Source of the DNA: Chionoecetes opilio
Taxonomy: Eukaryota > Arthropoda > Malacostraca > Decapoda > Majidae
Length of the DNA: 64,000 nucleotides
NCBI GenBank assembly: GCA_016584305.1
Contig: JACEEZ010001777.1
Coordinates: 400,257-464,256, forward strand
Direction: 5' to 3'
The translations under genes and the position numbers were made by a program. Below the pieces are notes generated by a model. That model did no database searches. It saw only the letters and a program-made list of their open reading frames with translations, and was not told where the DNA came from. This document shows positions 48,690 to 53,690 of the stretch, piece by piece (positions within the stretch are counted from its first letter, which is position 1; every line of letters begins with the position of its first letter).

Positions 48690-50340
48690 TGTAATGCCCG
48701 GTATTCGGAAGAGATAGCATGGGAATTCCTATCATACAATTCCCGGGTTATGTCCGTAAGAAGAAAAAAGGTTTCAATCTCCATAGGTTGTTCTGGGGGC
48801 AAGTTGTCACCTCGACCCAGCATATGGAGGAAAAGGGTATTCCTATCATATTAAGGTCAATTCAATCTTTTCGTTTCTCGTGAAAACATTCTTCTTTCTT
48901 TCTATCTCTCACTTCTATCTTCCCCCCTCCCCCATACACTCCGGATACGAGTCCAAATTCGTGGGACACTTATTTCGCGATCATCGATAACTAGTAGATT
49001 CAAAACTTTTCATCCTCTCCTCACCCTCCTATCAGATCAAGGAACACTCTTAGTTTCTTAATGTCCTTCAAAATAGACACAATAGTGACAGATCACGTTT
49101 ATAAATGGGTGTTGTTTAGTTGCAGTTATTTGCTAAATTAAAAGTCGACCAAATTTATGTTCGACTCCAATACCTCGTCTCTCTAAAAAACGCGTTCGTG
49201 GGCTTGAACGAAAGGAAATAACACGTCTCCCCGGATATTAGCATAAACATATTAAATTCTTCTATATCAAAGTAAAAGAACTGTATTATAGGCAGCCATT
49301 TCATATGTATACTTGTTTCATTAGTTAATTAGTCATTCGAGGTCTGATAATCCCTTCAGGAGAGGCCGTTTCATAGGATCCGAACATTCCCCTTTTTCCC
49401 GCTACTAAGCCCAACCTCGCCTTAGTCACCCCGAGGGAGCCAATCGTCTCTCCACTTCACTCCAGGTAAGACCTCGGTACCTCGCTCCTATTCCCCCCCC
49501 CCCTTCCTTGTTATATTATATCTATCTATATATCTATATATAGGTAGAGTTGGTTAGTTTTTCATTAACGCATAGGAGGCCTGGCCTGTCCTTATAAGTG
49601 TTATTAACGGAGTCGTCTCTCCACTCCTTTCAAGGAAACCAGGCCACATGGTACAGTGAATCCCACACCATCTCATTACTCTCACATTTTCTCTCCTATA
49701 TATATATTCCATGTATACCTATAGTGCTCAGTTGATACGGACATAGGTGGTAGTTCTAAGAATGATTCAGTGAGGGAGGCTATGCTCTGGAGAGCTTGCC
49801 CGTTCCAGATTAGAGTCTATATATGTGTCTAAGATCTCAAACAGAGAAATAATATTTCATGATGAATAAATAGGATGATGTTTCAAATATAGTTCTTGTG
49901 TTATTTAGTAAAAACCCCAGGTGATTATTCCGCGTGTTATGGAAATACTTCCCCACGTTCTCCAAACAAAGAGTTTTCAGCCTTACTCGGTGTAATTCTA
50001 AGTATCAACCACGACTACCAAAATAAATCTTATATATATTAAAAACGTGCTCAGGAAGTAAAACCATAGAACTACTTGCCTGAGCTGGTGGCAGCATTTC
50101 CCCTTACTCCTTAACTCCTACCCCTTCCCCTTAACCTTAACTCCTACCCCTCCCCCTTAAGTTCATTCCCATTTCAGTACTCTCCGCAGCGAGGAGTGTT
50201 CGTACTATAATTAAATAGTGAAGTCATAAGACAAATTTCAATTCTCAATTCAGTTGTAATCAATGAAAAAATCCTTAACCAGTTAATATCGTTCAATATA
50301 AAGGTGCAAGCAACAACCTTATAAAAACCCTGGCACCACA
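48690..50340 (+). repeat. Left LTR (1651 bp)
   Basis: Begins TGTAATGCCCGGTATTCGG and ends CCCTGGCACCACA. Aligned by eye with the right LTR it shows about a dozen substitutions and about ten small indels, so the insertion is recent. TATAAAAA sits at 50311-50318 close to the 3' end. Contains (C)n and (TATC)n runs near 49494-49545. Confidence 0.85.
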
Positions 50341-50753
50341 CTGGTGACTAAAGCGGTGGTATAGTATTTCCTACAAATAACAGCAACAGAATCTCACCTG
50401 GGAAAATAGCAAGATAAAGTCAAATTTCGGTAAATTTTCATACAGTAATCGATCATTATAGTAGGCTCATTAGATCTTTCCCCCTATAAACCAAACACCC
50501 TACACACATGAACCATGACCATGTGGCAGTGAGCTGTAAGAAGCAAGCCATCACAGCCACCTCAGCCACAGCATGCCGCGCGTCACCGCCACCATCACAG
50601 CCATCCCAGCCATCTCAGCCAGGCCGCATGCCGCGCGCCTAGCCGCCACGCTCGCCTCAGCTAGCCGCCCTTCACCGCCGTAGCCGCCGTTCCTAGCCGC
50701 TGCAGCCGCCGCGCCTAGCCGCCACACCACCCACACGCCTCGCAACCACCACC
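50341..50753 (+). promoter_or_regulatory. Interior leader: putative PBS and GC-rich 5' leader
   Basis: 50342-50359 (TGGTGACTAAAGCGGTGG) is the putative primer-binding site. 50550-50750 is GC-rich with repeated 'cagcc', 'gccgc' and 'tagccgcc' motifs, unlike the surrounding AT-rich DNA, and looks like a 5' UTR ending in the start context CACCACCATGG. Confidence 0.5.
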
Positions 50754-51143
50754 ATGGCAAAGAGAGGGCGTGAAGCCTCGTCGGGAGGGAAGTCCTGGAT
50801 TTCCCTCGGCCTACCCGTCACCGACATGAGCTGCGCTGACAACACAGGCGCCAAGAACCTGTACATCTTTGCCGTGCAGGGTATCAAGGGGCGTCTGAAC
50901 TGCCTGTCCGCCGCCGCCGTGTCCTACAACAACCAGCAGAGCAGCAGCGGTGACCCAAACAGCTACGGAGGCGGAGGATGCAGCGACACCGGCTCAGGAA
51001 TGGGCACACTCTTAGTTTCCAAGAACCTACAGGAGTTCCTGAAACGTTTTGAAGAGCTGAAGGCCATCAAGAAGTACAGGGCGTCAACAAGACCCATGAT
51101 GCCACCCATCAACAACAAGATGGAAAAGTTCGGTATCCAATAG
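50754..51143 (+). CDS. Chimeric ORF: ribosomal protein L23 (uL14) N-terminus + unknown C-terminus
   Basis: 129 codons, starting in an ideal Kozak context (ACCACCATGG). Residues 1-57 follow RPL23 closely: MAKRGREASSGGK, then ISLGLPV, the uL14 signature CADNTGAKNLYIF, and GIKGRLNCLSAA. In the ribosome, uL14 sits at the 60S subunit face near the bridge to 40S. From residue ~58 (YNNQQSSSGDPNSYGGGG) similarity stops; the rest is Ser/Gly-rich then basic-amphipathic (LQEFLKRFEELKAIKKYRAS) and ends FGIQ. I do not recognise it. The uL14 core strands that follow in true L23 (about 80 residues) are absent, so it cannot replace L23. No introns, consistent with capture from mRNA. Lies in the sense direction of the LTRs. 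Confidence 0.8.
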   Translation: MAKRGREASSGGKSWISLGLPVTDMSCADNTGAKNLYIFAVQGIKGRLNCLSAAAVSYNNQQSSSGDPNSYGGGGCSDTGSGMGTLLVSKNLQEFLKRFEELKAIKKYRASTRPMMPPINNKMEKFGIQ

Positions 51144-52035
51144 TGTTAAATTAGAAAATCAAGGAAGAATTATTTTGAACATGAACATTGATAATTTATT
51201 TTATGAACTTGAAAGGTTAATACCTACTCTGTTTAGGGTAGTTGTAGCGTCACCCGGTTATTACTCGTGGGGAAATCAAATCGAAAAGTGTTAAATGTTA
51301 AACATTGACCAGGTTTGAAAACAAACTGAGGGTCAGTATGTTCTTAATATATCCAGGTAGGAGGTTGATTGGGATACCAGTCTCTCATTGAATTTCATTA
51401 ACGGACTCAGTCTGGTTCGGTGAGTCTTCAAGGTATTTTAATTCAAGTTACAATCAACCCAACTTGTGGGGTATTCATGTGAAAATTAAGCGAAAAGTGT
51501 TAAATGTAAAATACTGAGTCAAGGGTAGTGTATGTCGGACTAGATGTAACAATTTGGTCTAGGAGATTTCTCATTTCTAGAATTCGGAGTGTCTGGTTTT
51601 CACGGGCTCAGCCTGGTTCGGTGAGAGGAGTATTTTAATTCGAGATAGCAGTACTGCTTCTCACTTACAGTCAACCAGCTTCAGGTGAAGCGATATTTCA
51701 GGACTTGTTAGGCGCTGTCAGTAACCATGAGGGTAGCCGGTGTGCGCCCCTGGGACATTCCTAGCAACGAGAATTAGGTATTGAGTCAGGTTTCGACGAC
51801 CACGTTACTGCCCAGGTCGGAGGTTGATTGGGATACTTCCTTCTCATTAAATATTCGTGTAATCTAAACACATTCAGACACCCGTTTCAAAGAATAGAAG
51901 AATCTCTATTAAATTCATTCTAAATTCGCCCCATACACCCATCTCCTCTTGACACAGCTTTAGAGAGAAAACGGAAGATCCGTGAGTAGTTAATTTGATA
52001 TTGAAGAATTTAATTTTTCCCGGAGAATAGACGTG
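51144..52035 (+). repeat. Interior 3' region with degenerate internal repeats
   Basis: Three related blocks: '(gaaat)caaatcgaaaagtgttaaatgt' at 51278 and 51488; 'aggt.ggaggttgattgggata' at 51355 and 51816; 'ggactcagtctggttcggtgag' at 51403 and 51605. Non-coding. Purine-rich 'agagagaaaacggaag' (51961-51976) is 60 bp short of the right LTR and is a poor polypurine tract. Confidence 0.6.
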
Positions 52036-53690
52036 TGTAATGCCCGGTATTCGGAAGAGATAGCATGGGAATTCCTATCATACAATTCCCGGGTTGTGTC
52101 CGTAAGAAGAAAAAAGGTTTCAATCTCCATAGGTTGTTCTGGGGGCAAGTTGTCACCTCGACCCAGCATATGGAGGAAAGGGTATTCCTATCATATTAAG
52201 GTCATTCATCTTTTCGTTTCTCGTGAAAACATTCTTCTTTCTTTCTATCTCTCACTTCTATCTTCCCCCCTCCCCCACTCCCTCCCCCATACACTCCGGA
52301 TACGAGTCCAAATTCGTGGGACACTTATTTCGCGATCATCGATAACTAGTAGATTCAAAACTTTTCATCCTCTCCTCACCCTCCTATCAGATCAAGGAAC
52401 ACTCTTAGTTTCTTAATGTCCTTCAAAATAGACACAATAGTGACAGATCACGTTTATAAATGGGTGTGTTAGTCGAGTTATTTGCTAAATTAAAAGTCGA
52501 CCAAATTTATGTTTCGACTCCAATACCTCGTCTCTCTAAAAAAACGCGTTCGTGGGCTTGAACGAAAGGAAATAACACGTCTCCCCGGATATTAGCATAA
52601 ACATATTAAATTCTTCTATATCAAAGTAAAAGAACTGTATTATAGGCAGCCATTTCATATGTATACTTGTTTCATTAGTTAATTAGTCATTCGAGGTCTG
52701 ATAATCCCTTCAGGAGAGGCCGTTTCATAGGATCCGAACATTCCCCTTTTTCCCGCTACTAAGCCCAACCTCGCCTTAGTCACCCCGAGGGAGCCAGTCG
52801 TCTCTCCACTTCACTCCAGGTAAGACCTCGGTACCTCGCTCCTATTCCCCCCCCCCCTTCCTTGTTATATTATATCTATCTATATATCTATATATAGGTA
52901 GAGTTGGTTAGTTTTTCATTAACGCATAGGAGGCCTGGCCTGTCCTTATAAGTGTTATTAACGGAGTCGTCTCTCCACTCCTTTCAAGGAAACCAGGCCA
53001 CATGGTACAGTGAATCCCACACCAACTCATTACTCTCACATTTTCTCTCCTATATATATATTCCATGTACCTATACCTATAGTGCTCAGTTGATACGGAC
53101 ATAGCTGGTAGTTCTAAGAATGATTCAGTGAGGGAGGTTATGCTCTGGAGAGCTTGCCCGTTCCAGATTAGAGTCTATATACGTGTCTAAGATCTCAAAC
53201 AGAGAAATAATATTTCATGATGAATAAATAGGATGATGTTTCATATATAGTTCTTGTGTTATTTAGTAAAAACCCCAGGTGATTATTCCGCGTGTTATGG
53301 AAATACTTCCCCACGTTCTCCAAACAAAGAGTTTTCAGCCTTACTCGGTGTAATTCTAAGTATCAACCACGACTATCAAAATAAATCTTATATATATTAA
53401 AAACGTGCTCAGGAAGTAAAACCATAAAACTACTTGCCTGAGCTGGTGGCAGCATTTCCCCTTACTCCTTAACTCCTACCCCTTCCCCTTAACCTTAACT
53501 CCTACCCCTCCCCCTTAAGTTCATTCCCATTTCAGTACTCTCCGCAGCGAGGAGTGTTTGTACTATAATTAAATAGTGAAGTCATAAGACAAATTTCAAT
53601 TCTCAATTCAGTTGTAATCAATGAAAAATCCTTAACCATCATTCAATATAAAGGTGCAAGCAACAACCTTATAAAAACCCTGGCACCACA
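52036..53690 (+). repeat. Right LTR (1655 bp)
   Basis: Same sequence as 48690-50340 with small differences, e.g. an 11-bp extra 'ccactccctcc' near 52271 and a 7-bp loss near 53636. Ends CACCACA|ACTC. Confidence 0.85.

Follow-up and report, generated by a model that had tools for sequence, protein, structure and literature searches.

How could an element bounded by long terminal repeats (LTRs) spread in an animal genome when its interior holds a piece of a ribosomal protein and neither gag nor pol? The question is raised by a 64,000-nucleotide stretch of the crab Chionoecetes opilio (contig JACEEZ010001777.1, positions 400,257 to 464,256; hereafter the window, to which coordinates refer unless a contig is named), in which an initial annotation made from the letters alone had recognised such an element around a captured fragment of RPL23. 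Our answer, which we regard as very probable, is that gag-pol of an LTR element was replaced by a chimera of host mRNAs, and that the result was amplified as a family by enzymes supplied in trans. In the following we call the form of the chimeric open reading frame (ORF) found in the window type A, and its relatives elsewhere in the genome types B and C; a gypsy-like relative bearing pol is referred to as the partner. The window element is inserted in a long interspersed nuclear element (LINE) and consists of the following parts.

48686-48689, no strand: left target-site duplication ACTC, identical to 53691-53694; the LINE frame is continuous over the empty site
48690-53690, plus strand: the whole LTR element, complete
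48690-50340, plus strand: 5' LTR, 1651 bp, TGTAATG...CACCACA, a direct repeat with homologous LTR pairs in other elements
50341-50446, plus strand: leader common to the gypsy-like partner (86.9%, sequence alignment)
50342-50356, plus strand: putative primer-binding site TGGTGACTAAAGCGG, starting one base past the 5' LTR
50447-50753, plus strand: untranslated and fast-evolving, upstream of the ORF; GC-rich for the most part (0.695 in 50531-50753)
50754-51143, plus strand: chimeric ORF, 129 codons, 129 residues, RPL23 + linker + beta-tubulin + GST
50754-50924, plus strand: RPL23/uL14, codons 1-57 (phmmer E = 9.2e-17 to PDB 4v6w)
50925-50987, plus strand: linker, codons 58-78 (best PDB E 1.7 for the piece holding it)
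50988-51023, plus strand: beta-tubulin remnant TGSGMGTLLVSK, codons 79-90 (12 codons; alignment to type B)
51024-51143, plus strand: C-terminal end of a mu-class GST, codons 91-129 and stop (PDB 10pw, E = 4.3e-7)
51144-51496, plus strand: 3' untranslated stretch common to types A and B, without a match in the partner pieces read
51497-52035, plus strand: 3' end of the interior, common to the gypsy-like partner (92%, sequence alignment)
52036-53690, plus strand: 3' LTR, 1655 bp, direct repeat of the 5' LTR
53691-53694, no strand: right target-site duplication ACTC, identical to the left copy

The outline proposed initially withstood measurement. The two 1.65-kb repeats with TG...CA ends show 15 substitutions over an alignment of 1637 bases, besides 10 gap events (Kimura two-parameter distance, K2P, 0.0092), and the ACTC duplication does flank an insertion into a LINE: excising the element and a neighbouring solo LTR leaves one reverse-transcriptase frame that reads through both empty sites. 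The absence of gag and pol from the window element was likewise confirmed, as no interior frame beyond the chimeric ORF is open past 88 codons from stop to stop, and the ORF matches in Pfam are L14 and GST_C_3, both below cut-off. Directly 3' of the 5' LTR stands CTGGTGACTAAAGCGG..., and the 24 bases from 50341 recur with at most two mismatches at 202 genomic places (98 forward, 104 reverse; none for a reversed-pattern control), counted irrespective of LTR adjacency. The first 190 nt of the interior are the least diverged of five interior stretches (p-distance 0.024 among 21 copies). Five upstream ATGs lie between the 5' LTR and the ORF, the leader gave no signal of RNA structure (z 0.03), and Rfam at gathering scores had no match in the window.

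The ORF opens with residues 1-57 of RPL23, as had been annotated. The idea of a plain RPL23 fusion was given up after parts of the remaining frame (residues 58-129) matched two further host genes: residues 79-90 correspond to beta-tubulin and residues 91-128 to a GST, with 79% over 39 residues to the C. opilio GST P0037. A 12-codon match would be precarious by itself, and it is secured because sister proteins with a longer tubulin part share the RPL23 leader and the joint; the tubulin part of type B matches tubulin 139-225 with E = 1.2e-31. The linker of codons 58-78 has no convincing match in PDB and is not present in types B or C. These matches identify the ORF as a three-way host chimera of RPL23, beta-tubulin and mu-class GST. 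The stop codon is followed by TAGTGTTAAAT in type A and by TAGTGTGTTAAATG or TAGAGTGTTAAATG in host GST, a likeness by which part of the GST 3' untranslated region may have come along with the GST piece.

The RPL23 part also reveals the form in which it was taken. Contig C1800 carries the host RPL23 gene, whose candidate exon 1 has ATGTCGAAGAGAG/GTAAG at its 3' border and whose second exon extends from (G)GACGTGG to AACACGG/GTAAG. Type C runs unbroken from ATGTCGAAGAGAGGACGTGG... to ...GACAACACAGGCGCCAAG through both host splice sites, the window ORF is likewise continuous, and the bases directly before the ATG in a type C copy match host RPL23 exon 1 (ACACCGCCACCATG). Because two host introns are missing at the splice sites, the comparison identifies a spliced mRNA as the source of RPL23, and the proposed capture from a host gene is upheld.

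We searched the C. opilio assembly (1.94 Gb, 20818 contigs) for further copies. Of 1317 first-look candidates from a search with the interior, 40 were scored and yielded 56 matches; at least 25 rows, the window's own included, span positions 1-1695. Together with the window copy, we read 20 copies taken by DNA similarity of the interior and 60 more that were consecutive rows of a search with host GST, which makes 81 copies of the type A/C ORF. The 60 comprise 46 intact type A and 3 intact type C copies, 7 with frameshifts or stops, 2 with a replaced start, 1 without an ATG and 1 repeat copy; a full-length type A frame is present in 65 of the 81. At least 121 rows of the GST search (hand count; 150 of 213 candidates scored) resemble a type A or C tail, and in 99 of these 121 the frame is open for 135 codons or more without an internal stop, a measure that runs high in that it includes L111, L116, L120 and L087, which were not intact when read. 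In all, the chimera occupies roughly a hundred or more genomic places.

These copies are inserted elements in their own right. Direct-repeat LTR pairs were found in 18 of the 20 fetched copies (all except L010 and L014). The LTRs measured are about 1.4-1.8 kb long, and K2P distances within 19 pairs (18 fetched and the window) are 0.0035-0.065, for several pairs based on only a portion of the LTR. Perfect 4-bp duplications, each different, flank 12 of the 14 elements with both ends located (13 fetched and the window); L022 and L028 have both ends located and no such duplication. The copies speak for a mobile family, as the initial annotation had proposed, and the element is neither a single copy nor a product of assembly joins. 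The protein database holds at least 17 type A and at least 20 type B clusters, all named C. opilio, and a protein search with the leader region returned 22 matches, namely 20 C. opilio chimeras and 2 plant RPL23 proteins. No chimera of another species was among the matches listed in three protein searches, one of which gave the best 120 of 529 and all of which missed type C, and no relatives of the element were found in viral contigs.

Types B and C show the same backbone with other versions of the chimera. Type B consists of RPL23 with a 14-residue deletion, followed by tubulin; a search with it listed 743 candidates, of which the 150 scored yielded 153 matches. Twenty type B loci carry the family 3' region in every case (partial in L044), the leader in 19 and the LTR, over its first 500 bp, in 17 (in L048 on the 5' side), and the ORF is open in 19 of them. 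Type C, found among the 60 further copies (L101, L093 and L092), has no linker, and both its RPL23 and its GST portion are host-like. In L101 RPL23 1-67 is nearly in host form, KFRISLGLPVGAVM; L093 is the same with single changes, and L092 has KSW as in types A and B. RPL23 is followed by tubulin GDTGS.MGTLLVSKI and then by GST, with the FGNN end in two of the three; the tubulin-to-GST joint lies within GAGGAGTTC, where host GST has CAGGAGTTC or CAGGAGTTT. The backbone of type C, judged from one copy read with flanks, is a more diverged version, 64-78% over longer matches. The alignments place types A, B and C on one shared element backbone. Residues E7, A8, S14, W15 and S57 are common to types A and B, not all of them fixed, and do not occur in 18 other RPL23 proteins; crab RPL23 itself reads GRGATSGGKFR, so A8 is ancestral and was excluded from the shared changes, the clearest of which are S14 and W15. 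We infer from these comparisons that type C is closest to the ancestral capture, that type A descends from type C, having gained a linker while its GST joint moved slightly, and that type B, a sister, retained more of tubulin.

Recombinant forms beyond these three were also encountered. L085 (C17989:28406-28821) contains about eight tandem 10-residue units, VDATVKKGDT, at the RPL23/tubulin joint, and L111 (C20600) and L116 (C7443) have a common replacement of about the first 39 RPL23 codons. The repeats and the new N-terminal part indicate that the ORF has been reshuffled further.

A relative bearing pol came to light through probes placed 2.3 kb downstream of the primer site in 20 elements not yet typed, which were chosen by eye among about 100 listed primer-site places. 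Eighteen gave LTR or family sequence, C520 gave no match, and C14400, which has a primer site identical to that of the window, gave a 200-codon open stretch. The next piece of C14400 matched RVT_1 (E = 1.3e-14), RT_RNaseH_2 (E = 1.7e-36) and also RT_RNaseH, and from the RVT_1 and RNase H type we take this element to be Ty3/gypsy-like. Its LTRs are 88-92% identical to those of the window and 98.6% to each other over 915 bp; identity is 86.9% in the leader, over its first 107 alignment columns, and 92% in the ~540 nt that close the interior, and window positions 50447-50753 have no match within the first 470 nt of the partner leader. A pol-bearing element of the C14400 type is the likely partner in trans, and the matching ends together with the reverse transcriptase and RNase H support, short of demonstrating, mobilisation in trans. 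As to the unmatched locus, C520, its primer-site pattern lies at 83307-83330 with the unmatched probe (L053) downstream and a type B ORF about 3.3 kb downstream; it may represent another insert type.

The steps that would connect the structure, the donors, the shared backbone and the pol-bearing relative, namely packaging, template switching, the order of capture and supply in trans, are ones that we infer. A Ty3/gypsy-like element would have kept its LTRs together with about 105 nt at the start and about 540 nt at the end of its interior, while gag-pol was exchanged for the host-mRNA chimera. Host mRNAs would have been packaged by chance beside element RNA in particles made by the partner, and template jumps of the reverse transcriptase would have linked beta-tubulin with RPL23 on one side and with GST on the other. 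Separate lineages would then have retained RPL23::tubulin (type B), RPL23::tubulin::GST (type C) and the latter with a new linker (type A, the window), and the chimeras would have multiplied by copy-and-paste with enzymes supplied in trans. Several observations weigh against this scheme. No polypurine tract, in the sense of a purine run of at least 9, adjoins the 3' LTR of the window copy, the nearest run being AGAGAGAAAA about 65 bp upstream. Microhomology on the tubulin side of the tubulin-to-GST joint is presumed from the protein sequence. The 200-codon open stretch of C14400 has no significant Pfam match, and the pol frame of this element, the only partner found, is interrupted in the piece read, so that this copy may be dead and an intact partner is presumed. 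The family is known here from genome sequence.

The strongest competing explanation grants the chimera a role. The ORF would be a working protein of the element, raising translation or stabilising or packaging RNA, and would have been selected on source copies. The frame is kept in 18 of the 20 copies chosen by DNA similarity, and the first 19 intact copies gave a dN/dS of 0.47 by the Nei-Gojobori method (NG86). Measured against the mutation spectrum of the flanks, the ratio was 0.62-0.64 for type A (P 0.03-0.045) and 0.46-0.48 for type B (P below 0.001). Maximum likelihood gave an omega of 0.665 for 65 type A copies (log-likelihood -2456.89 versus -2462.09 at omega 1, twice the difference being about 10.4) and of 0.355 for 19 type B copies (-1242.88 versus -1256.87). 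However, the spectrum-type count in the 65 intact type A copies yielded 50 synonymous and 107 nonsynonymous changes, a ratio of 0.93 (P 0.37). A CpG-stratified count on the tree of type A gave 0.77 overall (P 0.014); terminal branches stood at 0.68 (P 0.004) and internal branches, where selection on source copies should appear, at 1.01 (P 0.52). Moreover, protein score served to rank the type B copies, and GST-tail similarity the larger type A set, and both rankings remove amino-acid changes. The linker shows no constraint (20 nonsynonymous and 4 synonymous changes). Distinct indels amount to 17.9 per kb in the ORF, 21.1 in the leader and 35.8 and 56.2 in the 3' flanks, and 2 of the 7 distinct ORF events are multiples of three; a preference for frame-keeping indels, suggestive when counted per copy, became weak once distinct events were counted. 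Many copies have low LTR divergence, so open frames may simply reflect youth. Strong purifying selection, hinted at by the first 19 copies, was not upheld by the counts in 65 and returned in part with maximum likelihood and the stratified counts. Of the earlier suggestion that the ORF had been selected, the mostly open frames stand (65 of 81 at full length as type A), whereas selection is not established. The amino-acid tests conflict; because of this conflict the ORF is most simply a passenger by default, and we consider a working protein rather unlikely. Type B is the best place to look for a function.

Another explanation has the host pieces captured as DNA, through ectopic recombination of an LTR element with genomic host genes. 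The GST piece falls inside one host exon (the exon of C2850 encoding residues 152-218) and is compatible with either route, so GST does not distinguish RNA from DNA. The two introns missing from RPL23 led us to reject DNA-level capture of that part, and we judge this explanation as a whole to be highly improbable. A one-off processed insertion or an assembly artefact, for which nothing speaks beyond the odd structure, is ruled out for practical purposes by the restored LINE frame and by the many copies, which are spread over separate contigs, carry LTR pairs of their own and have differing duplications.

To our knowledge, accounts of gene building by retroelements have mostly had to rely on isolated old cases, Bs1 among them. 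In the crab, one genome holds types A, B and C, a copy with junction repeats, a relative bearing pol and two donor gene families, and the steps by which a retrotransposon makes chimeric genes are directly legible in an animal. Some copies are young, with LTR divergence below 1%, and the order of capture, the joints and the fate of the ORF are directly testable. The most far-reaching picture would be an assembly line for chimeric genes in an animal, with three spliced mRNAs captured in turn, exchange of the 3' cassette, new linkers and junction repeats, hundreds of open and possibly translated fusions, and a type B protein that serves the element or the host and is kept by purifying selection; at present we hold this to be doubtful. 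A practical consequence concerns annotation. The public records P0002-P0018, P0021, P0022, P0030, P0032 and P0041-P0056 are ORFs of this chimera family, named 60S ribosomal protein L23 or Tubulin beta-2 chain (P0018 as hypothetical protein), and C. opilio gene-family counts are at risk of inflation by such deposits.

Other features were noted in the window and among the GST copies. Two further LTRs of the family are present in the window.

53784-55421, minus strand: solo LTR belonging to this family, in inverted orientation, at K2P 0.125 from the 5' LTR, with TAAG at 53780-53783 and 55422-55425
about 42645-44208, plus strand: old degraded LTR copy of the same family, about 62% identity, ends approximate

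The solo LTR sits in the same LINE copy as the element, about 90 bp from it. The differing divergence of the three LTR copies suggests that LTRs of the family were inserted at different times and that the window insertion is young. A THAP-domain ORF (Pfam E 4.4e-18) lies on the minus strand at 16294-16707. Many long overlapping ORFs of odd composition occupy both strands at about 11700-14340, where assembly trouble or an unusual repeat is possible. Elsewhere in the genome, L075, L077, L078 and L079 (on C9765, C3410, C16327 and C9203) match GST-mu 1-218 in one frame without stops or introns, and beside the multi-exon GST gene of C2850 these four are possibly retrocopies.

The family can be compared with four known systems. 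LARD- and TRIM-type elements have LTRs and end signals without gag or pol and are presumed to be mobilised in trans. The crab element resembles them in these respects and differs in that its interior holds a host-derived coding ORF and its LTRs are about 1.4-1.8 kb long. In the capture of oncogenes by retroviruses, a host mRNA is recombined into a retroelement genome and spread by helper functions. Unlike retroviral transduction, the crab case involves neither virus nor oncogene, and several fragments are fused in frame within a genomic retrotransposon family. The initial annotation knew of no arthropod element of this build. No title or abstract start reported this crab chimera family in a literature search largely confined to freely available papers, and the word 'captured' is absent from the accessible part of a Decapoda repeat survey (PMC10454600). 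Similar multi-gene capture is known from maize Bs1 (PMC13317346). LTR-mediated retroposition in animals, as outlined in PMC5408686, proceeds by template switching between LTR-element RNA and host mRNA at microsimilarities, and Tan and coworkers, cited there, described retrocopies flanked by LTRs in metazoans. The crab family would share such template switching, and differs in having three donors per ORF, apparently added stepwise, and in being amplified as a retrotransposon family. Bs1 is an LTR element with segments of three host genes in one chimeric coding sequence (PMC13317346). The likeness lies in several host gene segments within one ORF and, in the crab, in RPL23 without host introns, and it is a comparison of described mechanisms that claims no common descent. 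The crab element differs in residing in an animal, in its other genes, in its 81 type A/C copies, in its sister and older chimeras and in its pol-bearing relative. Maize Bs1 appears to offer the closest known mechanism, to which the crab family would add an animal host, many copies and preserved intermediates.

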